Origin: Mesorhizobium sp.
GTDB taxonomy: Bacteria; Pseudomonadota; Alphaproteobacteria; Rhizobiales; Rhizobiaceae
NCBI RefSeq assembly: GCF_017306545.1
Contig: NZ_JAFKID010000006.1
Span: forward strand, 158,341-222,340
Length of the DNA stretch: 64,000 nt
Reading direction: 5' to 3'
Both the position numbers and the translations under genes were made by a program. Positions 5,186 to 25,994 of the stretch are shown here, piece after piece. The notes under the pieces are model-generated. The model did not search any database and had not been told where the DNA came from. It saw only the letters and a program-made list of their open reading frames with translations. Every line of letters starts with the position of its first letter. Within the stretch, counting starts at the first letter, position 1.

Positions 5186-6874
5186 TCACCCCACCGCCAC
5201 TCCGAACATCTCCTTCGCCTGCGCCGCCGTATAATACCCCATCGCCACGTCGTGCCGCACTGCGTCCGGGTCGCGCTGGCGCGGGTCGCCGTAGCCGCCG
5301 CCGCCCGGCGTGCCGACGCGCACGCGGTCGCCGGCCTTCATCGAGATATCCTGTTCTTTCGATAGATGCGGCGGCACATGCGCCTCGCCGTCGCGGAACA
5401 CCGTCACTTCGTTGACCGCGCCGTCCGCGCCGCCGAGTGCGCCCTGCGGCCCGAAGCGGCCGTGATCCATGACGAAGGAGGCGCGGGCTTCCCCTCTGAG
5501 CAATTCCACCTCGTAGGCCAGCCCGAAGCCGCCGCGATATTTTCCCGCCCCGCCGGAGCCTTCGCGCAGCGCATAGTGGCGGTAAAGCACCGGAAACGCC
5601 TGTTCCATGATCTCGACCGGCGGCGACTTGGAGATGCCGATGGTCGAGCAGCCGTTGGAAAGCCCGTCCTCGGCCGCGTTGCCGCCATAGCCGCCGCCGG
5701 AAATCTGGTACATCACATAGTCGCGGCCGCGCGCCGGGTCGTGGCCGCCGAGCGCGAAATTGCCGCTGGAGCCGGCGGGTGCTGCCGTCACCTTCTCCGG
5801 CAGCGCCTGCACAAGCGCCGCGAACACCGCCTCGGCGATGCGCTGCGAGACTTCGGCAGCGCAGCCGGAAACCGGGCGCGGGTAGTGTGCATCGAGGAAG
5901 GTGCCTTCCGGCCGGTGCACGATGAGCGGTTCGAAAGCGCCGGCGTTGATCGGCACGTCGGGGAAGATGTGGCGCATGGCGAGGTAGACGGAGGACAGCG
6001 TGGTGGCAAGCACGCTGTTCATCGGCCCGGCGCAGGGATGGCTCGACTGCGAGAAATCGAAGGTCAGCGTCTCGCCTTCCTTCTCGACCAGCAGCGCGAT
6101 CGTCAGCGGATGATCCACCACGCCGTCAGAGTCGACGAAGGCTTTCGAGCGGTAGAGCCCGTCGGGGATGGCCGAGATTGCCGCGTGCATCTGCTCGGCG
6201 GCACGCCGGCGCAGCTCGGCAATCGCCTGCTCCACCGTTTCGTCTCCGTAACGATCCAGGATCTCATTGACCCGGTCCTGCCCGACCAGCAGGGCGGCCG
6301 CCTGCGCCTTGATGTCGCCGATACGCTGGTCGGCGACGCGGATGTTGGAGGCGATGATGGCGTGGATCTCAGGATCGAGCACGCCTTTCTTGAACAGCTT
6401 CACCGGCGGCAGGCGCAACCCTTCCTGCTCGACGGCGGTGGCGGAAGCGGAAAACCCTCCCGGCACCGCGCCGCCGATGTCGGGCCAGTGGCCGGTGTTG
6501 GAGAGCCAGCAGAAGATTTTTCCCCCGCGATAGAGCGGCATGACGAAGCGCACGTCCATCAGGTGCGTGCCGCCGAGATAGGGGTCGTTGACGATGTAGA
6601 TGTCGCCCGGCTCGGGCGGCAGGCAGCTTCCGTCGCGGATCATCTCGATGACGGTGCGGGTGGAATATTGCATGACGCCGACGAACACCGGCAGGCCCTG
6701 GTTGCCCTGCGCGATCAGCGAGCCGTCCTCGGCCGAATAGATGCCGTCCGAGCGGTCGTTGGCCTCGGCGATGACCGGCGAGAAGGCGGCGCGCGAAAAG
6801 GTCAGGTCCATCTCGTCGCAGGCCTGCTGGAGCGCGGCCTGGATGACGGAGAGGGTGATGGTGTCGAGGGTCAT
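5186..6874 (-). CDS. hyuB: Hydantoinase B/oxoprolinase-family subunit
   Basis: 562 residues, full length for HyuB (N-methylhydantoinase B) proteins. The family blocks are present: VNDPYLGGTHLMD, the GGAGKYRGGFG region and the C-terminal TPGGGGYGDP. With the HyuA-type gene just upstream it should form an ATP-dependent enzyme that hydrolyses or carboxylates a cyclic amide or ketone. No gamma subunit (AcxC-like) follows, so an acetone-carboxylase role is less likely here. The Shine-Dalgarno GGAGAAGGAAG directly before the ATG is the end of the upstream palindromic repeat. Confidence 0.88.
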   Translation of the reverse strand: MTLDTITLSVIQAALQQACDEMDLTFSRAAFSPVIAEANDRSDGIYSAEDGSLIAQGNQGLPVFVGVMQYSTRTVIEMIRDGSCLPPEPGDIYIVNDPYLGGTHLMDVRFVMPLYRGGKIFCWLSNTGHWPDIGGAVPGGFSASATAVEQEGLRLPPVKLFKKGVLDPEIHAIIASNIRVADQRIGDIKAQAAALLVGQDRVNEILDRYGDETVEQAIAELRRRAAEQMHAAISAIPDGLYRSKAFVDSDGVVDHPLTIALLVEKEGETLTFDFSQSSHPCAGPMNSVLATTLSSVYLAMRHIFPDVPINAGAFEPLIVHRPEGTFLDAHYPRPVSGCAAEVSQRIAEAVFAALVQALPEKVTAAPAGSSGNFALGGHDPARGRDYVMYQISGGGYGGNAAEDGLSNGCSTIGISKSPPVEIMEQAFPVLYRHYALREGSGGAGKYRGGFGLAYEVELLRGEARASFVMDHGRFGPQGALGGADGAVNEVTVFRDGEAHVPPHLSKEQDISMKAGDRVRVGTPGGGGYGDPRQRDPDAVRHDVAMGYYTAAQAKEMFGVAVG

Positions 6875-6883
6875 CTTCCTTCT

Positions 6884-7112
6884 CCCCGTTCAAGGCAGAG
6901 CTATCGCATATGGCGCTGTACCCCCACCCCTAACCCCTCCCCTCAAGGGGGAGGGGGACTTCGGGGCATTGCCACGACACGCCGACGCAGACAATTTTGA
7001 ACGAAACGGCGGCGTCGGCGTCTCCCTCCCCCTTGAGGGGAGGGGACAGGGGTGGGGGTTCCGGGCCAGCGAAAAGTTCATATGCAATGGCGCGGCCGTA
7101 AACGGGGCGAGG
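6884..7112. repeat. Nested repeats between hyuA and hyuB
   Basis: The outer ends, CCTTCTCCCCGTTCA on the left and CGTAAACGGGGCGAGG on the right, match the two ends of the type A repeat at 1899-2030. Between them lies a type B element whose arms (6921-6957 and 7022-7058) are near-perfect inverted copies of about 37 bp. The simplest reading is that a type B unit was inserted into a type A unit. It separates two genes that are normally adjacent. Confidence 0.75.
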
Positions 7113-7134
7113 AGTCCTGTTCCGCTCATCGCGC

Positions 7135-9201
7135 TCATCTCCCCACCTCGATGACGATGTTGCCGTCAGCGTCGCCGCGTGCCGCGTCGCCCGGCTCAAG
7201 CACCGTCGTGCAGTCCATCTGCTCGAGGATCGCCGGGCCTTCGATCACCGCGTCCAGCGGCAATTTCTCGCGCGCATAGACCGGTGTGTCGTGCCAGCGC
7301 CCGTCATACCAGACGGGGCGTACTTCCAGCCGCGCCTCGGAAAGCGTGCCGGCTCGCCCGGCCGGGTCGATGAGCCGGCTAAGGTCGAGCGCCGGGCGCA
7401 CGCCGGTGACCGAGGTGTTGAGGTTGACGAGGTTGGCGCGGATTTCCGGCAGTTCCACCTTGAAGCGGGCGAAATAGGCCTTTTCGAACAGCGCCTGCAA
7501 GGTGGCGCGGTCGATGGCGACCGAGGGCAGGGGGACGTTCACGATATGCGTCTGGCCGATGAACTGCATGTCGGCCGAATGACTGACGCGGATTTCCTGC
7601 GGCTGCACGGCCTCCTGCGCGATCAGCCCTCGGCCTTCCTCCACCTGGGCTGCGAGCACGGCGCGCACGCGCTCCTCGTCCAGCGCCGCGACCGGCTGGT
7701 TCAGCGTGTTGACGAAATCGTGCCGCAGGTCCGCCACCACGCAACCGAGCGCATTGGTGATGCCGGGGCGCGCCGGCACCAGCACGCGCGGCAGGCCGAG
7801 TTCACGGGCCAGCGCCGAAGCGTGCAGCGGGCCGGCGCCGCCGAAGGCGAACAGGGTGAAGTCGCGCGGATCGTGGCCGCGCGCCACCGACACCATGCGG
7901 ATGGCGCCGGCCATCTTCATGTTGCCGAGTTTCAGAACGGCACCCGCCGCCGCGACGCCGGAAAGGCCGGCGGCGCGGCCGATTTTCTCCTCGAAAACGG
8001 CGGTCACGCTCTCCACGCTGACGGGATTGTCGACCGAAAGCAGCTTCTTCGGCGCCAGCCGGCCGAGTGCGAGATTGGCGTCGGTGATGGTCGGCTCCGT
8101 GCCGCCGCGTCCGTAGCAGATCGGGCCGGGGGCGGCTCCGGCGCTCTGCGGCCCGACCTGGATCAGTCCGGCCGCGTCGACGCGGGCGATCGAGCCGCCG
8201 CCGGCGCCGACCGTGTGCACCGCCACCATCGGCACATGGATCGGCATGGCGTATTCGATCTCGATCTCGTTGGAGACGGCCGGCTCGGCGTTGCGGATCA
8301 GCGCCACGTCGGTCGAGGTACCGCCCATGTCGTAGGTGACGAGGTTCTCGAAGCCGGCGCGCTTGCCGGTATAGGCGGCGGCGATGACTCCGGAAGCCGG
8401 GCCGGACATCACCGTTTTGGCCGCCTCGCGGGTCACGAAGCGGGCCGAGATCATGCCGCCGTTGCCGTTCATCATCAGGAAGTCGCGGGCATAGCCCTGC
8501 ACCGCCAGTTCGGCGCGCAGCTTTGCCACATAGCGTTCGAGGATCGGCTGCACCGAGGCGTTGACGGCCGCCGTCACCCCGCGCTCGAATTCGCGTGCCT
8601 CCGAAAGCAGCGCGTGACCCATGGTGATGTGGCCGTTCGGCCAGAGTTCCGCGGCGATCTCTGCCGCGCGTCTTTCATGCTCTGGATTGGCGTAGCAATG
8701 CAGGAAGTGGATGACCAGCGACTCGCAGCCGGCATCCAGCAATTGCCGTACCGCCTTTCGCACGCCATCCTCGTCGAGCGGCACGCGCACCGCGCCTGAT
8801 GCTTCGATGCGCTCGGCGACCTCGATGCGCAGATTGCGCGCAATGACGGGGACGAACGTGCCGGTCATGCCGTAGGCCTGCGGGCGCGTGCGTCGACCGA
8901 GTTCGATCACATCGCGGAAACCGGCCGTGGTGATCATGCCGGTTTTCGCCAGCCGCCGCTCCAGCACCGCGTTGGTGGTGGTGGTGGTGCCGTGCACGAT
9001 GAGGTCGATGTCCTTCACCGGATAGCTGGTGGCTGCAAGGGCCGCGACCACACCGAAGGCCTGGTTATCGACGGTCGTCGGCGTCTTGGCGATCGAAACA
9101 CGGCCGGCAGCCTGATCGATGAGGATCAGGTCGGTGAAGGTGCCGCCGACATCGACGCCGGCGACGACGCTGCCCGAGTGAGCCGGAGCGTTCTCATCCA
9201 T
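7135..9201 (-). CDS. hyuA: Hydantoinase A/oxoprolinase-family subunit
   Basis: 688 residues, normal length for HyuA proteins. It carries the ASKHA-type nucleotide-binding motifs: GVDVGGTFTD at about residues 15-24, YDMGGTSTDVALI mid-protein, and FGGAGPLHA near residue 430. The partner HyuB follows on the same strand after a 260-base repeat-filled gap. The pair is expected to act together in the cytoplasm on a cyclic amide such as hydantoin or 5-oxoproline; the substrate is not readable. No strong Shine-Dalgarno precedes the ATG. It is transcribed away from the fpr gene. Confidence 0.88.
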   Translation of the reverse strand: MDENAPAHSGSVVAGVDVGGTFTDLILIDQAAGRVSIAKTPTTVDNQAFGVVAALAATSYPVKDIDLIVHGTTTTTNAVLERRLAKTGMITTAGFRDVIELGRRTRPQAYGMTGTFVPVIARNLRIEVAERIEASGAVRVPLDEDGVRKAVRQLLDAGCESLVIHFLHCYANPEHERRAAEIAAELWPNGHITMGHALLSEAREFERGVTAAVNASVQPILERYVAKLRAELAVQGYARDFLMMNGNGGMISARFVTREAAKTVMSGPASGVIAAAYTGKRAGFENLVTYDMGGTSTDVALIRNAEPAVSNEIEIEYAMPIHVPMVAVHTVGAGGGSIARVDAAGLIQVGPQSAGAAPGPICYGRGGTEPTITDANLALGRLAPKKLLSVDNPVSVESVTAVFEEKIGRAAGLSGVAAAGAVLKLGNMKMAGAIRMVSVARGHDPRDFTLFAFGGAGPLHASALARELGLPRVLVPARPGITNALGCVVADLRHDFVNTLNQPVAALDEERVRAVLAAQVEEGRGLIAQEAVQPQEIRVSHSADMQFIGQTHIVNVPLPSVAIDRATLQALFEKAYFARFKVELPEIRANLVNLNTSVTGVRPALDLSRLIDPAGRAGTLSEARLEVRPVWYDGRWHDTPVYAREKLPLDAVIEGPAILEQMDCTTVLEPGDAARGDADGNIVIEVGR

Positions 9202-9410: not shown

Positions 9411-10229
9411 ATGACCTCCGCCCTTGCCTCCGACGAACGCGCGCCGCAGTTTCCGATTCCGGCCAACGTCTATGCCGAAAAGGTTGTGTCGGTGCGCCAT
9501 TACACCGACCGGCTGTTCTCCTTCCGCATCACGCGGCCGCAGTCGTTCCGCTTCCGCTCCGGCGAGTTCGTCATGATCGGCCTGCCGAATGCCGAGAAGC
9601 CGGTGTTCCGCGCCTATTCGGTGGCCAGCCCCGCCTGGGACGAGGAACTGGAGTTCTTCTCCATCAAGGTGCCGGACGGCCCGCTCACGCAGCACCTCCA
9701 GAAGATCCAGCCGGGCGACACCATCCTGATGCGCCAGAAGTCCACCGGCACGCTGGTGCTCGATGCGCTGACCCCGGCCAAGCGCGTCTTCATGATCTCG
9801 ACCGGCACCGGCATCGCCCCCTTCGCCTCGCTGCTGCGCGATCCCGACACCTACGAAAAGTTCGAACAGGTCTTTCTGACCCACACCTGCCGCGACAGGG
9901 CCGAGCTGGTCTATGGCCAGGAACTCGCGGCCTCGCTGAAGGACGATCCGCTGATCGGCGAACTGACCGAAGGCCGGTTCACGCTCTACAATTCCACCAC
10001 GCGCGAAGCGACCGATTGCATGGGCCGCATCACCGCGCTGATCGGTTCCGGAAAATTCTATTCGGACCTCGGCATCGAACCGCTCAATCCGGAAACCGAC
10101 CGGGTGATGATCTGCGGCTCGATGGACATGCTGAAGGACGTCAAGGAACTGGCGGAAAACCTCGGCTTCGTCGAGGGTTCATTGAGCGCCCCGGCCAGCT
10201 TCGTCGTCGAGCGCGCCTTCGTCGGCTGA
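9411..10229 (+). CDS. fpr: Ferredoxin--NADP(+) reductase
   Basis: 272 residues, typical of bacterial subclass-I FPR. The FAD-binding RAYS motif is at residues 67-70 and the NADP-binding TGTGIAPFAS at 131-140. The protein ends in AFVG, a tail like that of Rhodobacter and other alphaproteobacterial FPRs. It moves electrons between NADPH and ferredoxin or flavodoxin in the cytoplasm. It precedes the carrier-protein cluster on the same strand by 190 bases, so it could supply electrons to that pathway, but it is also a common stand-alone gene. Confidence 0.92.
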   Translation: MTSALASDERAPQFPIPANVYAEKVVSVRHYTDRLFSFRITRPQSFRFRSGEFVMIGLPNAEKPVFRAYSVASPAWDEELEFFSIKVPDGPLTQHLQKIQPGDTILMRQKSTGTLVLDALTPAKRVFMISTGTGIAPFASLLRDPDTYEKFEQVFLTHTCRDRAELVYGQELAASLKDDPLIGELTEGRFTLYNSTTREATDCMGRITALIGSGKFYSDLGIEPLNPETDRVMICGSMDMLKDVKELAENLGFVEGSLSAPASFVVERAFVG

Positions 10230-10421: not shown

Positions 10422-10667
10422 ATGATCGACCGCATCCGCACGCTATTGACCGGACATCCGATGATTCCGGTGGATTTTTCGGCGCTCAGCGACGACGCCA
10501 ATCTCTACGACGCGGGGCTGACTTCGTTCGCCTCCGTCCAGATGATGCTGGCGCTGGAGGAGGAATTCGACATCGAGTTCCCCGAGGCGATGTTGACGCG
10601 CCGCACCTTCGCCTCGCTCGCCAACATCGCCGACGCCGTTTCGCAGATCACACGCAAGGCGGCCTGA
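10422..10667 (+). CDS. Acyl/peptidyl carrier protein of the amino acid ligase cluster
   Basis: 81 residues. The phosphopantetheine attachment site is Ser35 in GLTSF, a variant of the usual GxDSL, followed by the acidic helix (LALEEEFDIEFPEAML) that partner enzymes recognise. The ATG at 10422 has AGGCAGG upstream; the frame is open 17 codons earlier but similarity begins at MIDRIR. Only two bases separate its stop from the next gene. In Bradyrhizobium such small carrier proteins are aminoacylated by the aaRS-like ligase encoded two genes downstream here, so this is the expected substrate. Confidence 0.88.
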   Translation: MIDRIRTLLTGHPMIPVDFSALSDDANLYDAGLTSFASVQMMLALEEEFDIEFPEAMLTRRTFASLANIADAVSQITRKAA

Positions 10668-10669
10668 TC

Positions 10670-11878
10670 ATGAACGTGCTCAGTAAGGTCGAAGCCGCCG
10701 CGCCTGCGGCTGCATTGGATTCGCCCGCGCAACGCATGCGCCGCGTAGCGGCGGTCGCCGCCGAACATGGCGACGCGGTGGATCGCGAAGGCCGTTTTCC
10801 GGCCGAGACGATCGCCGCGCTGAAGCGCGAGCGCCTGCTTGGGCTGGCCATCCCCGCCGAGTATGGCGGCGAGGGCCTCGGCACCGCCGCCGTCGCCGAC
10901 CTGATCGCGCAGCTCGCCCAGGCCTGCGGCTCGAGCGCCATGATCTACGCCATGCACCAGATCAAGACGTCGAGCTTCGTCATGCACGGCGTCGGCAGCG
11001 AGTGGCACCGTGCCTACATGCGCCGCATCGCCGCCGAGCAGCTTTTGATGGCCTCGGCCACGACGGAAGCCGGCATCGGCGGCAACCTGCGCAATTCCAT
11101 CTGCGCCATCGAGGTCGAGGACGGCCGCTTCAGGCTCGTCAAGGAAGCCATCGTCATTTCCTACGGCAACTATGCCGACGCCATCCTCGCCACCGCCCGG
11201 CGTGCGCCGGACGCGGCGAGTTCCGACCAGATCATGGTGGTGATTCCCAACGACGCCAACCGCACGATCGACCGCACCGTGGTGTGGGACACGCTCGGCA
11301 TGCGCGGCACCTGTTCCGACGGCTTCCACCTGGAAGCAGCGGGCGACGCGGCGCAGATCTTCCCGAAACCGTTCTCCGAGATCGCCGCGCAGTCGATGCT
11401 GGCATCGTCGCACATCTACTGGGCGGCGACCTGGTTCGGCATCGCCGCCGACGCCTTCAACCGCGCCCAGGCCTTCGTCAAGGCGGCGGCCCGCAAGCAG
11501 ACCGACGGCTCGCTGCCGCCGGGCGCGCTGCGGCTCGCCGAGGCGGCGGCGAAATTGCAGGAGATGAAGGGCCACCTGACGGCCGCCATCCACCGCTTCG
11601 ACACCGCCCTCGGTGATGATGACGCACTGTCTTCCATCGGCTTCGCCGCCGAGATCAATGCGTTGAAGATCGCCGCCAGCGAGAAGGCCGGCGAGGTGGT
11701 GCGCATCGCACTCCTGGTCAACGGCATCCTCGGCTACAAGAACGGCACACCTTTCAGCGTCGGCCGCCATCTGCGCGACACCGCTTCCGCGCCGGTCATG
11801 ATCTCCAACGACCGCATCCTTTCCAACACAGCGACCCTGCTCGTGATGAGCCGCTTCGACACCAGCCTGGGAGGCTGA
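10670..11878 (+). CDS. Acyl-CoA dehydrogenase homologue, probably acting on carrier-bound substrate
   Basis: 402 residues with the usual three-part acyl-CoA dehydrogenase layout: N-terminal helical part, a central beta domain with the flavin-contacting ATTEAGIGG region (about residues 127-135), and a C-terminal helical bundle ending in a GRHLRDTASAPVM block. The place between a carrier protein and a carrier-protein ligase suggests FAD-dependent oxidation of an aminoacyl or acyl group held on the carrier protein rather than free CoA; comparable dehydrogenases oxidise carrier-bound prolyl groups in antibiotic pathways. That role is inferred from context. The next gene starts after a 3-base gap. 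Confidence 0.8.
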   Translation: MNVLSKVEAAAPAAALDSPAQRMRRVAAVAAEHGDAVDREGRFPAETIAALKRERLLGLAIPAEYGGEGLGTAAVADLIAQLAQACGSSAMIYAMHQIKTSSFVMHGVGSEWHRAYMRRIAAEQLLMASATTEAGIGGNLRNSICAIEVEDGRFRLVKEAIVISYGNYADAILATARRAPDAASSDQIMVVIPNDANRTIDRTVVWDTLGMRGTCSDGFHLEAAGDAAQIFPKPFSEIAAQSMLASSHIYWAATWFGIAADAFNRAQAFVKAAARKQTDGSLPPGALRLAEAAAKLQEMKGHLTAAIHRFDTALGDDDALSSIGFAAEINALKIAASEKAGEVVRIALLVNGILGYKNGTPFSVGRHLRDTASAPVMISNDRILSNTATLLVMSRFDTSLGG

Positions 11879-11881
11879 CCC

Positions 11882-12805
11882 ATGGACGCCAAGACATTCG
11901 ATTCCAAAAGCTTGCTGGACAGCCTGTTCGACAACGGCATCCTGTTCGAGACGGGCGTGGACGGCCTCTACGGCCGCTCCGGCGCCTTCGAGGAGGTGAT
12001 CGAGCGCTTCGAAAAACTGGTCACGCGGCTCGGCGCGCCGGACAAGGCGACCCGCATCCACTTTCCGCCCGGCATGAGCCGCGCGACGCTGGAAAAGAGC
12101 GGCTACATGAAGTCCTTTCCGCAGCTTGCCGGCTGCGTGCATTCCTTCGTCGGCGGCGAGCGTGAGCACGCGCAACTTCTCAACATGATGGCGACCGGCG
12201 AGGACTGGACCGAGTTGCAGAAGGCGACGGACGTGACGCTGACGCCGGCCGCCTGCTATCCGCTCTACCCGACCGTCGCCGCGCGCGGCCCGGTGCCGGC
12301 GGACGGCGTGCTGTTCGAACTGTCTTCCTACTGCTTCCGCCACGAGCCGTCGCAAGACCCCGCCCGCATGCAGCTTTTCCGCATGCGCGAGTTCGTGCGC
12401 ATCGGCACCGCCGAACAGGTGCGCGCCTTCCGCGAAAGCTGGCTGACGCGCGGCAAGGCGATGATCGAACAGCTCGAACTGCCCTGCGAGGTCGATCTCG
12501 CCAACGATCCGTTCTTCGGTCGCGGCGGCAAGATGATGGCCAACAACCAGCGCGACCAGGGCCTGAAATTCGAGCTGCTGATCCCGGTGAACAGCCTGGA
12601 AAAGCCGACGGCCTGCCTCTCCTTCAACTACCATCAGGATCATTTCGGCCAGACCTGGGGCTTGCAGTTCGGCGATGGCGAATTGTGCCACTCCGCCTGC
12701 GTCGGCTTCGGGCTGGAGCGCGTGGCGTTGGCGCTGTTCCGCCACCATGGCCCGGATATCGAAGCCTGGCCGAAAAAGGTGCTCGCGGTCCTGTGGGGCG
12801 AGTGA
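11882..12805 (+). CDS. Amino acid--[acyl-carrier-protein] ligase (class II aaRS-like)
   Basis: 307 residues. It is the free-standing catalytic core of an archaeal-type seryl-tRNA synthetase without a tRNA-binding arm. Class II motif 2 is seen as FRHE (residues 152-155) with RMREF following, and motif 3 as GFGLER (275-280). C125, E170 and C273 match the Cys-Glu-Cys zinc site of this family. Characterised homologues from Bradyrhizobium activate glycine or alanine with ATP and load the phosphopantetheine arm of a carrier protein instead of tRNA. Its partner carrier protein is two genes upstream. Which amino acid is used cannot be decided by eye. Confidence 0.92.
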
Positions 12806-12807
12806 CG

Positions 12808-13806
12808 ATGAAAACCGCCATTGCCGGGCTCGATCCGGCAAGCTACCGGCCGCATCCGCTGCACGATGCCGAGCGCCGCTGGCCGCAGACCAACTGCTAT
12901 GTGGACCTTTTGGTCGAGGTCATGCACGCGACCGGACACGACCCGGTCGCGGCGTTGGGCTTCACGGTGACGCAGGACTTCGAGGGCGACCAGTTCACCT
13001 TCTTCAAGTTCCCGAGCGCCGATCTCCAGCGCCTCGCCGGCCTCGACATACAGGAACTGGCGATCTTCGACCGGTTGGAAGACCATGTCCTCGCCCAGAT
13101 CGGGCGCGGCCGCCTGCCGCTGGTGGAACTCGACGCGCATTTCCTGCCCGATACGAAGGGCATCACTTACCGCAGCGGCCATTCCAAGACGACGGTCGGC
13201 ATCAATGCGCTCGATCCCGAAGCGCGCCGCATGCACTATTTCCACAACGACGGCTATTTCGCGCTGGAAGGCGAGGACTATGACGGCCTGTTCGGCCCGT
13301 ACCGCGATGCATCGCCGGGCGGCATGCCGCTGTTTCCCTACGCCGAATTCGTCAAGTTCGGCGCGCCGGATGGCGAGGAGCCTGCCGCCGCCGCCCTTGA
13401 TCTCCTGCGCTCCCATCTGGCGCGGCGGCCGAAGCGCAATCCGCTCGCCGCCTATGCCGAAGCGTTCGAGGCTCATGCCCGTGCACTGGCCGGCCGCCAG
13501 CCCGACTATTTCCACACCTATGCCTTCAGCACGCTGCGGCAGGTCGGCGCCAATTTCGAGCTGCTCGCCAGCCACCTCGACTGGTTGCAGGCGAAGGCCC
13601 GCATGGATTTCGACGTGCCGGCGCGCGCCGCCGAGCGCATCGCCGACGGCGCCAAGGCCATCCAGTTCAAGCTGGCGCGAGCCATGGCAAGGCAGCGTTT
13701 CGACGGATTGGCCGAAAGCATCGCGCCGCTGGCCGAAGCCTACGACACGGTGATGGCGGCGCTGGAAGCGCGCCTTTCCGCCAGGACGGATACGAAGGCG
13801 GCCTGA
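12808..13806 (+). CDS. DUF1839 protein, possible BtrH-like aminoacyltransferase
   Basis: 332 residues of the DUF1839 family, whose function is not established. A conserved Cys (C30 in TNCYVD), His (H125 in SGHSKTTVG) and Asp (D136 in INALDPE) are spaced as in papain-like/C39-type folds. The intervening DFEGDQFTFFKFP and VELDAHFLPDT blocks recall the N-terminal domain of BtrH, which moves an amino acyl chain from a carrier protein to an aminoglycoside in butirosin synthesis. I infer it off-loads the aminoacyl group made by the upstream ligase. The ATG at 12808 lies two bases after the ligase stop; the frame is open upstream but overlaps the ligase gene. Confidence 0.8.
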   Translation: MKTAIAGLDPASYRPHPLHDAERRWPQTNCYVDLLVEVMHATGHDPVAALGFTVTQDFEGDQFTFFKFPSADLQRLAGLDIQELAIFDRLEDHVLAQIGRGRLPLVELDAHFLPDTKGITYRSGHSKTTVGINALDPEARRMHYFHNDGYFALEGEDYDGLFGPYRDASPGGMPLFPYAEFVKFGAPDGEEPAAAALDLLRSHLARRPKRNPLAAYAEAFEAHARALAGRQPDYFHTYAFSTLRQVGANFELLASHLDWLQAKARMDFDVPARAAERIADGAKAIQFKLARAMARQRFDGLAESIAPLAEAYDTVMAALEARLSARTDTKAA

Positions 13807-13824
13807 GCCGCCGAGGGGACCAGG

Positions 13825-16347
13825 ATGGACGCCACGGTGCCGGTCGCCGGCGCGGATCAGGTGCTGGACACGGGATGGTCGATGGCCGTCTCGGCGGCCG
13901 GCGCATGGCCGGCACCCGCCGCGATCGACCCGCGCGCCGAATGGCTGGCGGCCGAATGCCCCGGCACGGCGGCGGCCACGTTGGAGGGGCACGGCCGCTG
14001 GGACCGTACAGCACCGACGCCGCTGCACGACAAGGACGTCTGGTATCGCTGCCGGCTGCACGCGACAGGGCCGGTGCGCCTGGTTTTCGAGGGCCTGGCG
14101 ACCGTCGCCGAAATCTGGCTGGCCGACCGGCTCGTCGCAACCTGCACATCGATGTTCGAGCCCTGTGAGGTCGAGGCCGACCTTGCCGGCGGCGAACAGC
14201 TTGCCATCGCCTTCCGCAGCCTCGACAAACATCTGGAGACGTTGATCGGCCCGCGAGCCCGCTGGCGTCCGCGCATGATGGACGACCAGCGCCTCAGGCT
14301 GGTGCGCACCACCCTGATCGGCCACATGCCGGGTTGGTGCCCGCGCTTCGATGCGGTCGGTCCGTGGCGGCCGGTACGGTTGGTGCAGCAGGGGAAGGGG
14401 TTGCGCATCCTCGACAGGATGCTGCGGGCCGACCTCGACGGCACGACCGGCCGCCTTTCGGTCGCGCTCGACCTGTCCGTGCCGATCGATGCGGGCGAGG
14501 ATGCGACCGTTTCCTGCGCCGGCGCGACGGTACCTTTGCGTCGCGAAACGCCGACTCGCCTCGTTGCTGAACTGGAAATCCCCGGCATCCCGCCGTGGTG
14601 GCCGAACAGCCACGGCAAGCCGGTTCTGCATGGCGTCTCGGCCCGCATCGGTGCCGTGCGGCACGACCTCGGCCGCGTCGGTTTCCGCAGCATCGCCCTC
14701 GACCGTGGCGTGGACGGCCGCGATTTCCGGCTCATCGTCAACGGCGTGCCTGTCTTCTGCCGCGGCGCGGTGTGGACGCCGTCCGATCCGGTGACGCTTG
14801 CCGGAGACGAGGCCGCATTGGCGCACGACCTCGAATTGGCACGCGATGCCGGCGTCAACATGCTGCGCGTCGCCGGCACTTTCACTTACGAGTCCGATAC
14901 CTTCCACGCATTGTGCGACGAGCTCGGCATCCTCGTCTGGCAGGATCTGATGCTGGCCAATTTCGATTACCCGGCAAAGGACGAAGGCTGGTGCGCCGCG
15001 CTTGGACGCGAGGTCGCGGCGCTGCTCAGGCGGCTTGCGTCTTCGCCGTCTCTTGCCGTGCTGTGTGGCGGCAGCGAGATCGCCCAGCAGGCGACGATGC
15101 TCGGCTTGCCGGCCGGCATCGATGCGACGCCGTGGTTCGATCATGTCGTCCGCCCGGGGGCAGAGGCCCTGCGCCCCGATCTCGTTCTCGTGCCGTCCAC
15201 GCCTCACGGCGGCAGCCTGCCTTTCACCGCGTCGGGCGGGCCGACCCACTATTACGGCGTCGGCGCCTATTGCCGGCCGCTGGAGGATGCGCGTCGCGCC
15301 GAGGTGCGCTTCGCCTCCGAATGCCTGGCCTTTGCCAACGTGCCCGATCAGGCGACGCTCGACGCGCATCTGCCGGTGCCGCCGGTCCACGATCCGCGCT
15401 GGAAGGCCGGCGTGCCGCGCGACGCCGGCGCGTCGTGGGATTTCGAGGATATTCGCGAGCACTATCTGGAGACGCTGTTTGCGGTGGATACGCACCGCCT
15501 GCGCCGCGAGGACCCGGCACGCTATCTCGACCTGTCGCGTGCCGTCACCGCCGAGGTGGTCGAGCGCACCGTCGACGAATGGCGCCGCCCCGCCTCGCCG
15601 GCGGCCGGCGCATTGCTGCTGTTCTGGAAGGATTTGGCGGTCGGCGCCGGCTGGGGCGTCGTCGACGCGACCGGCCGGCCGAAATCGGTCTGGCACGCGC
15701 TGAAGCGCGCTTTCGCGCCGACGCGGCTGATCCTCTCCGACGAGGGCGTCAACGGGCTCGACCTGCATCTGCTCAATGACGGCCCGGCACCCTTGCGCGG
15801 CACGCTCTCCGTTTCCTGCCTGCGCGACGGCGCGGTCGCCGTGGTGAGCGGCAAGCGGACTGTGGAAGTGTCGCCGCACGGCGGCTTGACGCTTTCGGTC
15901 TTCGATCTGCTCGGCGCCTTCTTCGACGTTTCCTATGCCTATCGCTTCGGCCCCGCCGGCCACGAACTGACGGTGGCGCGCTTCGAGGCTGAGAGCGGCG
16001 CGGTGCTGGCCGAGGCTTTTCACACTCTGCCCGGCGTCATGACCGCGCGCCGCGATACCGGTCTGACCGCGCGGCTGGAGCGCGACGGCGAAGGCTGGCA
16101 GCTTGCGCTCGGCTGCCGGCGCGCCGCCTATCACGTCGACATTCGCGACGACCGTTTCCGGCCGCGGGACAACGGCTTCCACCTTGTTCCCGGCGGTGAG
16201 TGCATCGTGCGCCTCGTCGGCCCGGCGGATGCCGAGCCGATGGGGGTCGTGACCGCGCTCAATGCCGAAAGCGGCGCTGCCTATCGGCCGGCCGAGGTCG
16301 CTGCCGCCGGCGCGTCGGACAAGGCTGTTGCGGAGGTGGTGCCATGA
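13825..16347 (+). CDS. Glycoside hydrolase family 2 protein (beta-mannosidase-like)
   Basis: 840 residues. An N-terminal jelly-roll sugar-binding domain (about 1-170), an Ig-like domain, and a TIM barrel carrying two likely catalytic acids: E418 in CGGSE (the place of the NE acid/base) and E499 in FASEC (the place of the SEFG nucleophile). A C-terminal beta-rich part completes the GH2/beta-mannosidase plan. No signal peptide is seen, so it should be cytoplasmic. Its place 18 bases after DUF1839 and overlapping the next gene by 4 bases ties it to the carrier-protein cluster, which suggests the pathway product or precursor is a glycoside. Both motifs deviate from the canonical ones, so activity is uncertain. 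Confidence 0.8.
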
Positions 16348-18131
16348 GGCCGCTGGTCTTCGACGGAACGATCGGTTGGTTGCACGAGGCCGGCGGCCGG
16401 CGCGGCGTCGTCATCGCCGGTGCGCATGGCTTCGAGGATCTGTGCAGCCGCCGCTTTCTGATGCTGCTGGCCGGCCGCATGGCGGCTGAGGGCCTTCCCG
16501 TCCTGCAATTCGACTATCCGGGCTGCGGCGATGCCGCCGGCGATCATGCCGCGCCGCGACAGGTGGAAGCCTGGGTAAAAAGCATCGGCGCGGCGATCGA
16601 CAGGCTGAAGCGCGAGACGGGCGTGACGGATGTCGTCGTCGTCGGCTTCCGGCTCGGCGCGCTGCTGGCGCCGCTGGTTGCCGCCGGCCGCGACGACGTG
16701 GCCGGTCTCGCTCTCCTTGCCCCGCCGGCTTCCGGCAGGACCTATGTGCGCGAAATGACGGCGCTGTCGCGCATGATCGACGCGCCGCTGGCTGCCAGGG
16801 GCCCGGCCGAGCCGTTCGACGGAAGGCAGGTCGCAGGCTTTCGCCTGTCTTCCGAAACGCTCGCCGCACTTGCCGAGCTCGACTGGCAGCAGGCGCTGGC
16901 CGAGGCGGCCGCGCCGCATGTTCTGGTGCTGGCCAACGGCACGCCGCCGGAGATCGATTTTCCGCGCCGAAAGAACGGCGCCGGCCTGCCCGCGGTCACG
17001 GTGGCCGAATTCGAGGGCTACGCGCATCTGGCCCGCGATCCGACCGCCAACCGGATTCCGGAAGCGGCCCTCGACCTTGTGACCGGTTGGATCGGCCACC
17101 TGGCGGTGGAAGGCGGCGACCGCGCCGTTGCCTCCGCCTCGAGGGGGCCGCAGATGCTCGCCGGTCCCGGTTATCGCGAGGAGCCGGTGGTGATCGGCGG
17201 CGGCAGTGAAATCTGCGGCGTGCTGTGCCGTCCGGCGAAGCGGGGCGCATCCACTACGCCGGTCATCTTCCTGAATGCCGGTGCGGTGCCGCATGTCGGC
17301 TGGGCGCGCGGCACGGTCGAGGCGGCGCGGGCGCTTGCCGTCGAAGGCGTCGCCTCGCTGCGCATCGACCTGCCGGGCATCGGCCAGAGCGCGGCGCCGG
17401 CGGAAGAGCGGTTGTTCCTTTACGACGGCCGCACGCGCCGCGATGTCATCCGCGTCATCGACTGGATGGAAGAGGCAGGTTTTGCACAGGTCGGCGTGGT
17501 CGGCGCCTGTTCGGGCGCTTTTCAGGCCCTGCACGCCGCCCGCGCCGACCGCCGCGTGCGGCGGCTGATGATGATCAATCCGCTGTGTTTCGCCTGGAAC
17601 AGCTCCTATGCCCTGGAACTGGCCGTGTGGAAGACTTACGGAACGTCCAAGGTGACAATGCTCGAACCGGGCAAAGGGGACGGACTTCAGGGAGCCGTGC
17701 GGTCTTCCGCCTTCGGCGCGCTGCGCACAGGCCTGTCGAAGTTGGCGCGCCGGCCGGTCCGGCGGCTGCTGGAACTGATCAAGACCGCGCTCGCCGTTCC
17801 CGCCCGGCTTAGCGGGCGCACGCCGGTCGAACGCTGGATGCGCGGGCTGGGCAGCCGCGGCGTCAGGGTTTTGATGGTCACGTCGGAAGGCGACCTGAGC
17901 CTGGAGGAGATCGCCCGCCACTTCGGTCCGGATGGCGAGCGCCTCGGGGCGATCCGCGGCGTGTCGCGGTTGAGTATCGCCGCCGCCGATCATACGCTGA
18001 CGCCATGCCACGCCCGCCGTGCGCTGGTTGCCCCGCTGATCGAGTTCGGCCTGGAAGACGATTTTGCGGGCAAGGCCGGCATGCGGGCGGCGCCGCCGAC
18101 AGCGGCGAGGCCGGCGCTCGGAACGCCCTGA
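16344..18131 (+). CDS. Tandem alpha/beta-hydrolase-fold protein
   Basis: 595 residues in two alpha/beta hydrolase halves. Half one has its nucleophile elbow at residues 101-105 as GFRLG, with Arg in place of the nucleophile; half two has GACSG at 387-391, placing Cys389 at the nucleophile position. A late DHTLTP (about 552-557) may hold the catalytic His. The first half resembles exosortase-system-associated hydrolases, which also show a GxRLG elbow. The ATG at 16344 overlaps the GH2 stop (ATGA), so translation is coupled; the frame is open upstream inside GH2 but that part is out of family. Probably an esterase, thioesterase or acyltransferase for the cluster product. Confidence 0.78.
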
Positions 18132-21688: not shown

Positions 21689-21911
21689 ATCAATGGTATA
21701 GCAATCGTCAAAGATCGCATTTGACAGTTATGGCAAAGGGCCACACCTTGCGCCTGCTCCGAGGCCACGCGCCCTGGCTGGACAGCGAACCGAGGAGCCG
21801 ATTGGGAGGATACCGGAGATCGATGGTTCGCGGCCGCGCCGGGTGCGCTGCCGCCCGGCCATGCGGACCGCGCTCCTCGCGGCGCAGCGCCCATCAACCA
21901 GGGAGAGAGAA

Positions 21912-22985
21912 GTGAAGATCATCAAAACGTTGGTCGCTGCGGCGGCCCTCGGCATTGCGGCCATGGCGGTTTCGGCCGCCCACGCGGCGGACAAGGGCCT
22001 CATCGGCGTGCTGATGCCGACCAAGACCTCGCAGCGCTGGATCAACGACGGCGACGCCGTCAAGAAGCAACTTGAGGAAAAGGGGTACACCGTCGACCTG
22101 CAATATGCGCAGGACGACATCCCCAACCAGCTCAGCCAGCTCGAGAACGAGATCACCAAGGGCCCGAAGGCGCTCATCATCGCCTCGATCGACGGCACCA
22201 CCATGTCGGACGCCTTGCAGAAGGCTAACGACGCCGGCGTCGTCGTGGTCGCCTACGACCGCCTCATCAAGAAGACGCCGAACGTCGACTACTACACCAC
22301 CTTCGACAATTTCGGCGTCGGCGTCATCCAGGCCAACTCGCTGGTCAAGGGCCTCAAGGAGCGCTTCCCCAACGCCAAGCCGTGGAACGTCGAGCTGTTC
22401 GGCGGTTCGCCGGACGACAACAACGCCTTCTTCTTCTACAACGGCGCCATGAGCGTGCTCCAGCCGCTCATCGACGACGGCTCGATCAAGATCAAGTCGG
22501 GCCAGACGGGCATGGACAAGGTCGGTACGCTGCGCTGGCTGGCCGCCACCGCCCAGGCGCGCATGGACAACCTGCTCTCCGCCAACTACTCGGACGGCAG
22601 CCGCGTCCACGGCGTGCTGTCGCCCTATGACGGCCTGTCGCGCGGCATCACCGCCTCACTGCGCGCCGTCGGCTACGGCACGGACGCCCAGCCGTGGCCG
22701 ATCGTCACCGGCCAGGACGCCGAGACCGCTTCGGTCAAGCTGATCATCTCGGGCGAGCAGTATTCGACCGTCTTCAAGGACACGCGCGAACTGGCCAAGG
22801 CGACCGTCGAGCTGGTCGACACCGTGCTGTCGGGCAAGAAGCCCGAGGGCCTGGACGAGAAGACCTACAACAACGACGTCAAGGTCGTTCCCTCGATCCT
22901 GCTCACCCCGGTCGAGGTCGACAAGTCGAACTACGAGAAACTGGTGGTCGACTCCGGCTACATCAAGGCCGACGAACTGAAGTAA
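21912..22985 (+). CDS. chvE: Periplasmic aldose-binding protein ChvE
   Basis: 357 residues. A signal peptide ends near AHA-ADKG (about residue 25). The mature protein is a type I periplasmic binding fold with the [13 protein letters not shown] opening seen in ChvE and the [13 protein letters not shown] and [12 protein letters not shown] ligand regions. ChvE binds aldoses such as galactose, glucose and arabinose and delivers them to the GguAB importer; in Agrobacterium it also signals through VirA. Translation starts at a GTG with GGGAGAGAGA six bases upstream; no suitable ATG exists. An intrinsic terminator directly follows the stop, so it is probably made in excess over the membrane genes. 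Confidence 0.92.
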
Positions 22986-22999
22986 CGGCTTGCGCCAAC

Positions 23000-23028
23000 G
23001 GGGTTCCGCGTCGAGCGGAACCCCTTTT
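23000..23028 (+). terminator. Intrinsic terminator/attenuator after chvE
   Basis: A perfect 10-bp stem GGGGTTCCGC / GCGGAACCCC with GTCGA loop (23000-23024) is followed by TTTT (23025-23028). It lies 15 bases after the chvE stop and before gguA. Partial read-through here would give high ChvE and lower GguA/GguB, the usual ratio for binding-protein importers. Confidence 0.8.
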
Positions 23029-23059
23029 CGCCGGCGGGCGCCGGCGCTATCGTTTCGGA

Positions 23060-23157
23060 CGGATCGCCGTGCGTCCTCCGACGCACAGGGACGATCCGGA
23101 ACTCTGGTCGAGCATCGGAACGCTCCGAAAACCGCATTCCATTTTCGACCCGATGCT
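23060..23157. other. Structured intergenic element before gguA
   Basis: Two hairpins in a row. The first pairs CGGATCG (23060-23066) with CGATCCG (23092-23098) and inside it GTGCGTC with GACGCAC around a CTCC loop (23069-23086). The second pairs AGCATCGG (23111-23118) with CCGATGCT (23150-23157). The gguA ribosome site AGGAGGT starts four bases later. It could be a diverged copy of a dispersed rhizobial intergenic element, or an mRNA-stability or translation-control structure. Confidence 0.5.
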
Positions 23158-23172
23158 TGCAGGAGGTGCCCA

Positions 23173-24705
23173 ATGGCCTCGACCATTCTGGAAATGCGCG
23201 GCATCACCAAGACCTTCCCCGGCGTGAAAGCGCTGTCGAACGTCACCTTGAGCGTCGAGGAAGGCGAGATCCACGCCATCGTCGGCGAGAACGGCGCCGG
23301 CAAGTCCACCCTGATGAAAGTGCTGTCGGGCGTCTATCCGACCGGCACCTACGACGGCACCATCGTCTTTCGCGGCCAGGAGTGCCAGTTCGCCGGCATT
23401 CATGACAGCGAGCGGCTGGGCATCGTCATCATCCACCAGGAACTGGCGCTGGTGCCGATGCTGTCGATCGCCGAAAACATCTTCCTCGGCAACGAGCACG
23501 CCAGCTACGGCATCATCGACTGGAACGCCAACGAGACGCGCACGCGCGCGCTGTTGAAGAAGGTCGGCCTCGACGAAGACCCCAAGACCCTCATCACCAA
23601 CATCGGCGTCGGCAAGCAGCAGCTTGTCGAGATCGCCAAGGCGCTGTCGAAGGAAGTCAAGCTCCTGATCCTCGACGAGCCGACGGCGAGCCTTTCGGAG
23701 AAGGACAGCCAGGCGCTGCTCGACCTCCTGCTGGAGTTCAAGCGGCAGGGCATGACCTCGATCCTCATTTCCCACAAGCTCAACGAAGTCAGCCGCGTCG
23801 CCGACCACGTCACCGTCATCCGCGACGGCCAGACCATCGAGACGATGGAACGCAAGGACGTTTCCGAAGACCGCATCATCACCTCGATGGTCGGCCGCTC
23901 GCTCGACGACCGCTATCCGCCGCGCGAGCCGAAGATCGGCGAGGTGGTGCTTCAGGTGAAGGACTGGTCGGTCTACCACCCGATCCACGCCGAGCGGCAG
24001 GTCATCAAGGGCATCGACCTTACCGTCCGCAAGGGCGAGGTGGTCGGCATCGCCGGCCTGATGGGCGCCGGCCGCACCGAATTCGCCATGAGCCTGTTCG
24101 GCCGCTCCTGGGGCCGCCGCATCACCGGCAGCGTGACGCTCGACGGCAAGCCGGTCGATGTCTCGACCGTCGGCAAGGCGGTGGAGCAGGGCATCGCCTA
24201 CGTCACCGAGGACCGCAAGACCTACGGTCTCAACCTGATCGACCACATCAAGCACAACGTCTCGGCCGCCAACATGAAGGGCGTGTCGAAGCGCGGCGTC
24301 ATCGACGACCTGCGCGAGCTTTCCGTCGCCAACGAATATCGCGCCAAGACCAACATCCGCGCCCCGAGCGTCTACCAGCTCACCGGCAACCTCTCCGGCG
24401 GCAACCAGCAGAAGGTGGTGCTGTCGAAATGGCTGTTCGCCGATCCTGAGGTGCTGATCCTGGACGAGCCGACGCGCGGCATCGATGTCGGCGCCAAATA
24501 CGAGATTTATACGATCATCGCGCGCCTTGCCGCCGAGGGCAGGGCTGTGCTGGTGATTTCCTCGGAAATGCCGGAGCTTCTGGGCATCACCGACCGCATC
24601 TATGTCATGAACGAGGGGCGCATCGTCGGCGAGATGGCAACCGCCGACGCCAGTCAGGAAAAGATCATGCGCGCCATCGTCAGGGGAGAAGGGAAGGCAG
24701 CATGA
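23173..24705 (+). CDS. gguA: Sugar ABC importer ATPase GguA
   Basis: 510 residues with two nucleotide-binding domains in tandem, the plan of MglA/XylG/GguA ATPases. Walker A of domain one is GENGAGKST (residues 38-46). Domain two has the reduced [10 protein letters not shown] loop in place of a full Walker A but keeps the LSGGNQQKV signature, as usual in this group. The ATG at 23173 has AGGAGGT five bases upstream. The open frame further upstream covers the hairpin region and is not coding. It powers uptake of sugars captured by ChvE and overlaps gguB by 4 bases. Confidence 0.93.
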
Positions 24706-25994
24706 GCACCGAGACGAGCCCGGTACCGCAAAGCGGCGTCGCCGACGACGGGCAGCAGCGCCCGCGCATCGCCGTTTCGGCGCTGGCCACCAACCTGCGC
24801 GAGTACGGGCTGGTGCTGGCGCTCATCATCATCATGCTGTTCTTCCAGTTCACCACCGACGGCACGCTGTTCAAGCCGCTGAACCTGTCGAACCTGGTGC
24901 AGCAGAACTCCTTCATCATCGTCATGGCGCTCGGCATGCTGCTGGTCATCGTCGCCGGCCATATCGACCTGTCGGTCGGCTCGGTCGCCGGCTTCATCGG
25001 CGCGCTGGGCGCCAACATGATGGTGACGTGGCAGCTCGGCCTGTTGAGCAATCCGCTCGTCGCCTCGATCGTGTGCCTGATCGTCGGCGCCGCGATCGGT
25101 GCCGCGCAAGGCTACTGGATCGCCTACCACCGCATTCCGAGCTTCATCGTGACGCTGGGCGGCATGCTGATCTTCCGCGGTCTGTGCCAGGCCATGCTTG
25201 GCGGCGGCCTGTCCGTCGGCCCGCTGCCGGCCGACTTCAAGGAGCTTTCGTCCGGCTTCATCCCCGAGGTGCTGGGCGTGTGGACGCTGGTTCCGCCGAC
25301 GGTCAACGCCGCCGGCAAGACGATCTTCGGCAGCGGCGTCCAGTTGCAGATGACGTCGGTGGTGCTGGGCCTCATCGGCGTCGCCGCCTACGCCTGGTTC
25401 GGCCTGTCGGCGCGGCGCACGCGCGAGCGTCACGGCTACGAGGCCGAGCCGTTCGCCCTGTTCGCCGTCAAGACGATCGTCATCAGCCTGCTGACGCTGT
25501 TCCTGGTCTACCAGTTCGCGATCTACAAGGGCCTGCCGATCGTGCTCGTCGTCATGGGCCTTCTGATCGGCCTGTTCGTCTTCGTCACCAAGCGCATGGT
25601 CATAGGCCGGCGCGTCTATGCGCTCGGCGGCAACGCCAAGGCGGCGCAGCTTTCCGGCATCAAGACGGAGCGGTTGACCCTCTACGTCTTCATCAACATG
25701 GGCGTCCTGTCGGCGCTCGGTGGCCTGATCATCGCCGCCCGTCTCGGCCAGGCGGTGCCGGCCGCCGGCCTGGGGTCGGAACTCGACGTCATCGCCGCCG
25801 TCTTCATCGGCGGCGCCTCGGCCATGGGCGGTGTCGGCCAGGTCATCGCCACGGTGGTCGGCGGCTTCATCATGGGCGTCATGAACAACGGCATGTCGAT
25901 CATGGGCGTCAACGTCGATTGGCAGCAGGTGGTCAAGGGCCTGGTGCTGCTCGGTGCCGTCGTCTTCGACGTCTACAACAAGAACAAGTCTTAG
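24702..25994 (+). CDS. gguB: Sugar ABC importer permease GguB
   Basis: 430 residues with about ten or more hydrophobic segments of the RbsC/XylH/MmsB permease family. Family blocks [31 protein letters not shown] (EAA-like coupling loop for the ATPase) and [14 protein letters not shown] are present. The ATG overlaps the gguA stop (ATGA), so the two are translationally coupled. It forms the channel for ChvE-delivered aldoses. Confidence 0.93.

Follow-up and report, generated by a model that had tools for sequence, protein, structure and literature searches.

Amino acid:carrier protein ligases, represented by PDB entries 4h2w and 3mey, are reportedly known from the work of Mocibob et al. in 2010 and 2013. 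The characterised enzymes load glycine or alanine, the substrate of the Bradyrhizobium ligase being glycine. In a note added in proof in 2010, a redox enzyme, the uncharacterised Atu2574, a glycosidase and genes for liposaccharides were described as linked; amide formation with an amino sugar of the cell surface was predicted for Atu2574, and monooxygenation for the redox enzyme (PMC2922099). The role of these ligases was still called unknown in a 2022 review (PMC9437257), and nothing further in print beyond the 2010 prediction was found in the open-licence literature searched, which included Atu2571-2576 and Bll0957/PRK07080. The present study concerns six genes at positions 10422-18131 of a 64,000-nucleotide stretch of Mesorhizobium sp. 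(contig NZ_JAFKID010000006.1, 158,341 to 222,340), hereafter the window. We propose that they form an operon for a cytoplasmic route, independent of nonribosomal peptide synthetases (NRPS), which would place a modified small amino acid on an amino sugar, usually destined for a surface glycan (probability roughly 0.55). The pathway hypothesis itself has been known since 2010; what is new, within the literature searched, are the fold evidence, the missing catalytic base, the co-occurrence counts and the controlled gene context.

A check of the open reading frames returned the six genes, all on the forward strand and tightly packed or overlapping, exactly as a first-pass annotation had placed them:

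10422..10667, +, stand-alone aminoacyl carrier protein (CP) of 81 residues with a predicted phosphopantetheine site at Ser35 (NF005480, PF00550)
10670..11878, +, flavoenzyme of the acyl-CoA dehydrogenase (ACAD) fold without the canonical catalytic Glu (Pfam ACAD domains)
11882..12805, +, amino acid:carrier protein ligase of 307 residues with a seryl-tRNA-synthetase-like core (NF005479)
12808..13806, +, DUF1839, a papain-fold protein (PF08893)
13825..16347, +, GH2 beta-mannosidase-like glycosidase (PF22666; PDB beta-mannosidases)
16341..18131, +, tandem alpha/beta-hydrolase (TIGR03101 and TIGR03100, both below cut-off)

In the first step of the proposed pathway, a small amino acid would be activated by the ligase and transferred to the CP phosphopantetheine. 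While bound there as a thioester, it would have its amine oxidised or N-hydroxylated by the flavoenzyme. Because of its fold, its invariant cysteine and its context, DUF1839 is proposed to act like CcbD of the celesticetin pathway, accepting the aminoacyl group on Cys30 and handing it on to an amino-sugar amine. Finally, GH2 and the Cys-type hydrolase might trim, edit or pass on the glycan or the acyl conjugate. To judge from the gene context in relatives, the destination would be an exopolysaccharide or another surface glycan.

Conservation and gene context of the cassette

The families that the first-pass annotation had expected to recur together do so. Profile searches of 297 genomes of the order found DUF1839 in 49 and the ligase over cut-off in 64. 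All 49 DUF1839 genomes carry a ligase within 1.5 kb of DUF1839 and 48 carry a strong GH2 match within 4 kb; in the lone miss (G307), DUF1839 lies about 330 bases from a contig end. Besides, none of the 297 genomes has a strong match to this GH2 without DUF1839, and the remaining GH2 matches listed are far weaker (at most 143 bits). Within the window's genus, DUF1839 is present in 4 of 13 genomes. A survey of the phylum found it in 16 of 398 genomes, including four of family f109, outside the order, two of which have two copies. In two genomes DUF1839 is spread over two overlapping frames (G005:C1:3144178-3145103 and G221:C1:2515620-2516545), both breaking near profile position 210-230, which may reflect a sequencing error or a frameshift.

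The five genes CP-ACAD-ligase-DUF1839-GH2 are a conserved collinear cassette, and the hydrolase is a frequent but looser companion. The 35 DUF1839 loci that were fetched within the order, representing 32 of the 49 DUF1839 genomes and three more from the genus, all agree in the order and strand of the five. Among 87 further loci, a tally that excludes loci shorter than 5 kb (L160-L170), the five genes stand in order in 80 (74 of 80 and 6 of 7 in two subsets). Of the six exceptions in the larger subset, four run off the end of the locus. The remaining pair (L128 and L135) consists of split cassettes, in which ACAD, DUF1839, GH2 and the hydrolase stay together and the adjacent ligase and CP genes lie about 30 kb off on the same contig. 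The hydrolase is found in 64 of the 87, on either strand and on either side of the cassette, and a homologue is present in 23 of the 35 order loci.

In a ligase tree of 41 rows, the window and two Mesorhizobium relatives cluster with loci of families f16, f27 and f50 (support 99/100). The genus has two more copies (L040 and L074), which the tree places elsewhere, in a less well supported group (80/80) together with two f41 loci and members of their own family. Members of one genus are therefore found in two groups, which suggests that the cassette moved by horizontal transfer. DUF1839 is lacking in 15 of the 64 ligase genomes. At the five of their loci that were fetched (L075-L079), ACAD is kept beside the ligase in every case, a diverged CP lies on the opposite strand, and no DUF1839 or GH2 is present; these five form one side of a tree branch with 100/100 support. 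At 710 bits to 3mey, the L076 ligase belongs to the Bll0957 type; neither DUF1839 nor GH2 is matched anywhere in the 20 kb of this locus. Read by eye, several of the five also have an SDR-like and an acyl-CoA-synthetase-like protein nearby. In a Bradyrhizobium phaR mutant, bll0957 and the neighbouring acyl-CoA dehydrogenase gene bll0958 show an equal fold change of 3.0 (PMC10888616).

The f109 loci place the cassette amid exopolysaccharide genes. Bac_transf and PAP2 lie upstream and ManC and Wzc downstream in L171; GT4, Wzy and Wza are near the cassette in L174; and two Wzc, GT4 and GT2 adjoin a second DUF1839 copy in L173. L175 has Bac_transf and a VpsR-like regulator, and in L172 a search with exopolysaccharide queries returned a Bac_transf homologue. 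The second DUF1839 copies of two f109 genomes (L171, about 11777-12685, minus strand; L173:91-1299) lie amid exopolysaccharide genes with no ligase alongside, and may serve a second acceptor.

Eight exopolysaccharide queries were taken from L171, L173 and L174, where their matches are no test. They match 12 of the 35 order loci versus 0 of 40 control regions (Fisher P 3e-5), a comparison that does not count independent events, the loci being related and four of the 12 positive ones belonging to one genus. Of the 35 case genomes, 20 supplied two controls each, placed at round-number positions; together the controls cover 800,000 bases, against 685,567 for the cases. One of the five ligase loci without DUF1839 is matched as well. 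Furthermore, at least 8 of 349 GT4 matches, read by eye, lie within 10 kb of DUF1839 against 1.4 expected; they come from 6 of 20 genomes, four of which belong to family f41. Neighbour clusters around the cassettes include GT4-, Wzx-, GNVR- and GT2-like proteins (10 representatives annotated, without a control of their own). Six f41 loci (L047, L050, L053, L056, L066 and L067) have a recurring upstream set that includes a 6-pyruvoyl-tetrahydropterin-synthase family protein, GT4, a methyltransferase and, by eye, a zinc-type alcohol-dehydrogenase-like protein.

This context supports the sugar-linked acceptor that had been supposed from the window sequence, and a surface-polysaccharide substituent looks likelier than a natural product. 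Three observations count against a polysaccharide destination: 23 of the 35 order loci have no homologue of the eight queries, of 36 genomes, only 4 (all from one genus) have Bac_transf close to the cassette, and the window genes scanned next to it include no glycosyltransferase. The window copy has no adjacent exopolysaccharide gene, and the polysaccharide reading is therefore drawn from its relatives.

The strongest alternative is that the cassette makes a diffusible aminoacyl conjugate of an amino sugar or amine, similar to lincosamides or mycothiol, with GH2 and the hydrolase releasing or activating it and with possible MATE-type export. Such a product would suit six proteins that look cytoplasmic by eye, a MATE transporter gene next door and a window cassette without an adjacent glycosyltransferase. 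Besides, CcbD serves an antibiotic pathway (PMC12945683) and CtaG acts in closthioamide biosynthesis (PMC6772006). However, the f109 cassettes sit amid exopolysaccharide genes, the order loci are enriched over the controls (12/35 versus 0/40), and none of the 35 fetched relatives has a match to the MATE gene next to its cassette. We consider a diffusible product unlikely, if well worth keeping in mind.

Predicted roles of the encoded proteins

The carrier and its ligase can be assigned from curated families, as had been proposed at first: both score over their cut-offs and align with ligase and carrier chains of the PDB. CP matches NF005480 with 97.2 bits (cut-off 72) as well as PF00550, and Ser35, in the motif DAGLTSF, is found in 36 of 36 aligned sequences. 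The nearest solved carriers are Atu2571 (2jq4) and the CP of 4h2w (67.4 bits each), the CP of 4h2s reaching only 28.5 bits. A D-alanylation carrier was rejected (DltC match of 31.6 bits, cut-off 68), and so was an ordinary fatty-acid acyl carrier protein, for which the scores were below the cut-offs. The ligase matches NF005479, 'amino acid--[acyl-carrier-protein] ligase', with 495.1 bits (cut-off 357), and its residues 12-304 align with 4h2w (339 bits) and 3mey (Bll0957; 324 bits). It retains the class-II core, but matches the SerRS profile only at positions 311-502 of 518 and has no tRNA-binding domain. C125, E170 and C273, which we take to be zinc ligands, align with Bll0957 and are conserved at the 95% level in 41 sequences. 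As shown for its relatives, the ligase would load a small amino acid onto the adjacent CP. Membership of an NRPS was also rejected, as Pfam and NCBIfam list no adenylation, condensation or thioesterase domain for the six proteins.

The flavoenzyme has N- and C-terminal ACAD domains over the Pfam cut-offs and a middle domain below. Its AlphaFold2 model (pLDDT 89.9) matches dehydrogenases best, with the monooxygenases KijD3, DszC and TdsC at similar E-values. When the family profile is aligned with the Tfu_1647 dehydrogenase (8i4p), its segment RDvlsaplmisnDRi falls on RDAKITQIYEGTNQI, so that Ile378 stands at the catalytic Glu of IYEGT; in an alignment of 30 sequences (29 relatives of 40), Ile378 replaces this MCAD-position Glu in every one. 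His248 is likewise invariant, and the position directly before it, presumably the other known place of the base (IVD-like), is acidic in none of the 30. Classical acyl-CoA dehydrogenase catalysis was rejected on the loss of the catalytic Glu at both the MCAD and the IVD position. The classical -2 dehydrogenation on the carrier that the first-pass annotation had envisaged is thus not supported: both positions lack the Glu in 30 of 30 sequences, and the Bradyrhizobium ligase relative uses glycine, which has no beta carbon. Because of the missing Glu, the matching monooxygenase folds and the glycine substrate, oxidation at the nitrogen or the alpha carbon is favoured over a -2 reaction, and the ACAD homologue probably oxidises or N-hydroxylates the amino acid while it is bound to the carrier.

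A variant of this step, compatible with the overall route, would have the ACAD homologue work as a genuine alpha,beta-dehydrogenase whose base has moved elsewhere, perhaps to His248; the product would be a dehydroaminoacyl carrier lighter by 2 Da. ACAD folds score equal to or above monooxygenase folds, His248 is invariant, and 7p98, the top sequence match of the ACAD, has Thr where the usual Glu stands, showing that the base can move. In contrast, Ile378 occupies the MCAD-like position throughout, what we take to be the IVD-like position by His248 holds no acidic residue, glycine offers no beta carbon, and the 2010 note predicted monooxygenation (PMC2922099). We regard this variant as rather improbable.

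DUF1839 (PF08893, 411 bits) would carry out the transfer step. Its AlphaFold2 model (pLDDT 92.5, pTM 0.91) gave 18 Foldseek matches in the PDB at E<=0.001, all of them AziU2-U3, CtaG or CcbD chains, aligned over the full length (319-372 columns) at E 1e-8 to 2e-5. AziU2-U3 stands at the top, and generic papain-like enzymes rank after the three (E>=0.012). In terms of this model, the full-length match goes beyond the published placement of DUF1839 in the papain-like clan (PMC10318531). Across 31 aligned sequences (30 relatives of 34 extracted), W25, P26, T28, N29, C30, D33, H125, K127, T128, T129, H146, K283, Q286, R291 and others are invariant. C30 sits at the start of helix 30-41 in the model, the nucleophile position of CcbD/CtaG/BtrH-like transferases. 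CcbD joins CP-bound proline to a thiooctose amine via a cysteine thioester, accepts many acyl groups and touches its CP through Arg312, Arg316, Gln319, Arg323 and Arg324 (PMC12945683); it has also been solved with its peptidyl carrier protein domain. K283, Q286 and R291 of DUF1839 are spaced as R316, Q319 and R324 of CcbD, a likeness of sequence spacing alone, the structures not being superposed. Because of the fold match to CcbD, CtaG and AziU2-U3 and the invariant Cys30, DUF1839 most likely moves an aminoacyl group to an amine, the movement of an aminoacyl group being what had been assumed at first; in other words, an acyl (amide) transferase of the CcbD and CtaG kind, dependent on a carrier protein, is its most likely identity.

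Several points speak against this assignment. AziU2-U3, the best fold match, forms an aziridine and not an amide. The fold match itself is loose (TM-score 0.52-0.67, root-mean-square deviation 5.2-7.5 A, 12-16% identity); in the model, the high deviation is that of a common fold with shifted parts and no close superposition. A DUF1839 profile searched against the PDB found no match to AziU2-U3, CtaG or CcbD among its six chance-level matches (best E 0.17), and BtrH_N (PF14399) matched 0 of 31 members at E<=10, in a search whose HMMER filters drop most weak matches. Furthermore, the histidine of the DUF1839 triad is reported to be displaced, giving C(T/S)H (PMC10318531), against Cys-His-Glu in CcbD. 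We call DUF1839 CcbD-like, and not a member of BtrH_N, because of the missing sequence link and the displaced histidine.

Another possibility is that DUF1839 depends on the carrier but is no amide synthase, and catalyses some other reaction, as AziU2-U3 does, or frees the oxidised amino acid as a thioesterase. AziU2-U3 as best fold match, and the reported swap of the His and Thr/Ser positions (PMC10318531), would fit this. However, the amide-forming CcbD (PMC12945683) and the proposed acyl transferase CtaG (PMC6772006) also match over the full length with comparable significance. Such a reaction would leave the near-absolute glycosidase linkage and the polysaccharide context unexplained, and it appears quite improbable.

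The proposed route to a sugar amide can also be stated more narrowly. In a widespread proteobacterial system, the ligase would charge CP with glycine or alanine, a base-less ACAD would N-hydroxylate or oxidise the amine, and a displaced-His papain-fold enzyme would attach the product to the amino sugar of an exopolysaccharide precursor. We advance this specific form tentatively, at well below even odds.

GH2 has an N-terminal PF22666 domain and matches beta-mannosidase 5n6u best in the PDB (E 8e-37), and no signal peptide was seen by eye. Its predicted acid/base Glu418 and nucleophile Glu499, roles that we assume from motif resemblance and alignment to 5n6u, are both present in 36 of 36 aligned sequences. 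In the hydrolase, the first half reads GFRLG, with Arg or Gly at the nucleophile position in 24 of 24 aligned sequences, and the second half has Cys390 (GACSG) and His551 in all 24. We infer that a Cys nucleophile would suit thioester acyl transfer. Membership of the exosortase-A-associated hydrolases 1 and 2 was rejected (TIGR03100, 84.3 of 168.45 bits; TIGR03101, 89 of 202.75), and a trimming role for GH2 and the hydrolase is a guess. That both are unrelated catabolic neighbours, co-transcribed by chance with an aminoacyl-carrier pathway, is very improbable and for GH2 disfavoured: the hydrolase does vary in position and strand and is present in 64 of 87 loci, and hydantoinase and sugar-uptake genes do flank the window cassette, but every strong match to this GH2 comes from a genome that has DUF1839, and in 48 of the 49 such genomes the two genes are neighbours, the odd one out being at a contig end.

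Operon structure and flanking genes

The junctions are tight. The CP stop at 10667 is followed by the ACAD ATG at 10670, the ACAD stop at 11878 by the ligase ATG at 11882, the ligase stop at 12805 by the DUF1839 ATG at 12808, and the DUF1839 stop at 13806 by the GH2 ATG at 13825. The GH2 gene (stop at 16347) overlaps that of the hydrolase (ATG at 16341). Third-position G+C backs the coding status of the first five frames. For the hydrolase, codon-position G+C of 0.74/0.55/0.82 supports coding from the ATG at 16341, the form to which these figures refer, a longer GTG-start form also being present. By eye, none of the six N-termini has a signal-like segment, and all six proteins look cytoplasmic.

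A hydantoinase A/B pair (5186-9201, minus strand) lies divergently upstream of the CP gene, and a ferredoxin-NADP-reductase-like (FNR-like) gene (9411-10229) ends 192 bases upstream of the cassette. The other flanks hold the MATE transporter gene, which is convergent (TIGR00797 over cut-off), and a LysR regulator. A ChvE-GguA-GguB multiple-monosaccharide ABC importer, with every component over its curated cut-off, lies at 21843-25994. None of the 35 fetched relatives has a match to the hydantoinase, the FNR-like reductase or the MATE transporter next to the cassette, and LysR and ChvE-GguAB give only scattered weak ones there; no fixed reductase partner emerged, the FNR-like gene being unmatched. 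Hydantoinase A/B homologues (33-37% identity) also lie divergently beside split-off CP and ligase genes at L220:11259-15154 and L221:11797-15692. The presence of hydantoinase A/B beside CP in the window, L220 and L221, and in none of the 35 other loci, may be chance or may mark a functional partner.

Comparison with known systems

If the proposed route is true, it gives a role to an enzyme family of so far unknown purpose, and another family with the potential for acyl transfer is added. The recurrence of the cassette across many Rhizobiales, and in one distant family elsewhere in the phylum, would also be accounted for and tied to exopolysaccharides. If, moreover, the reading of a base-less ACAD and a displaced-His transferase is true, a new chemical class of polysaccharide substituent would be made without NRPS, CoA or tRNA. 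The question of role becomes a concrete assay, in which purified DUF1839 is given the aminoacyl carrier and an amino sugar.

Among known proteins, the tandem hydrolase resembles both exosortase-A-associated hydrolases, whose systems also sit with polysaccharide genes, but here the two halves are fused and score about half the cut-offs or less. RedW and the prolyl-acyl carrier protein dehydrogenase 4irn share with the flavoenzyme an ACAD fold acting on an aminoacyl carrier; the matches are weak (RedW, 28.9 bits against a cut-off of 650; 4irn, 49.3 bits by profile), and the canonical Glu is missing here. AziU2-U3 of azinomycin biosynthesis, which acts in a carrier-protein pathway, and CtaG have their fold in common with DUF1839, whereas their acyl groups and acceptors differ. 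CtaG is the proposed acyl transferase of the closthioamide pathway (PMC6772006). BtrH, the acyl carrier protein:aminoglycoside acyltransferase of butirosin (PMC10318531), likewise differs in acyl group and acceptor, and DUF1839 has no match to BtrH_N.

The Agrobacterium genes Atu2571-Atu2574 have the same ligase and CP families and received the same core prediction, although the 2010 note is a short prediction without fold evidence (PMC2922099). The lincosamide synthetases CcbD and LmbD of celesticetin and lincomycin use Cys-His-Glu where C(T/S)H is reported for DUF1839 (PMC10318531). Their carrier is charged by an NRPS adenylation domain, whereas that of DUF1839 would be charged by an aminoacyl-tRNA-synthetase-like ligase, and no sequence similarity was detected between the two. 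What they have in common with DUF1839 is the full-length fold, a carrier-bound amino acid, a catalytic Cys and, likely, an amine or amino-sugar acceptor.

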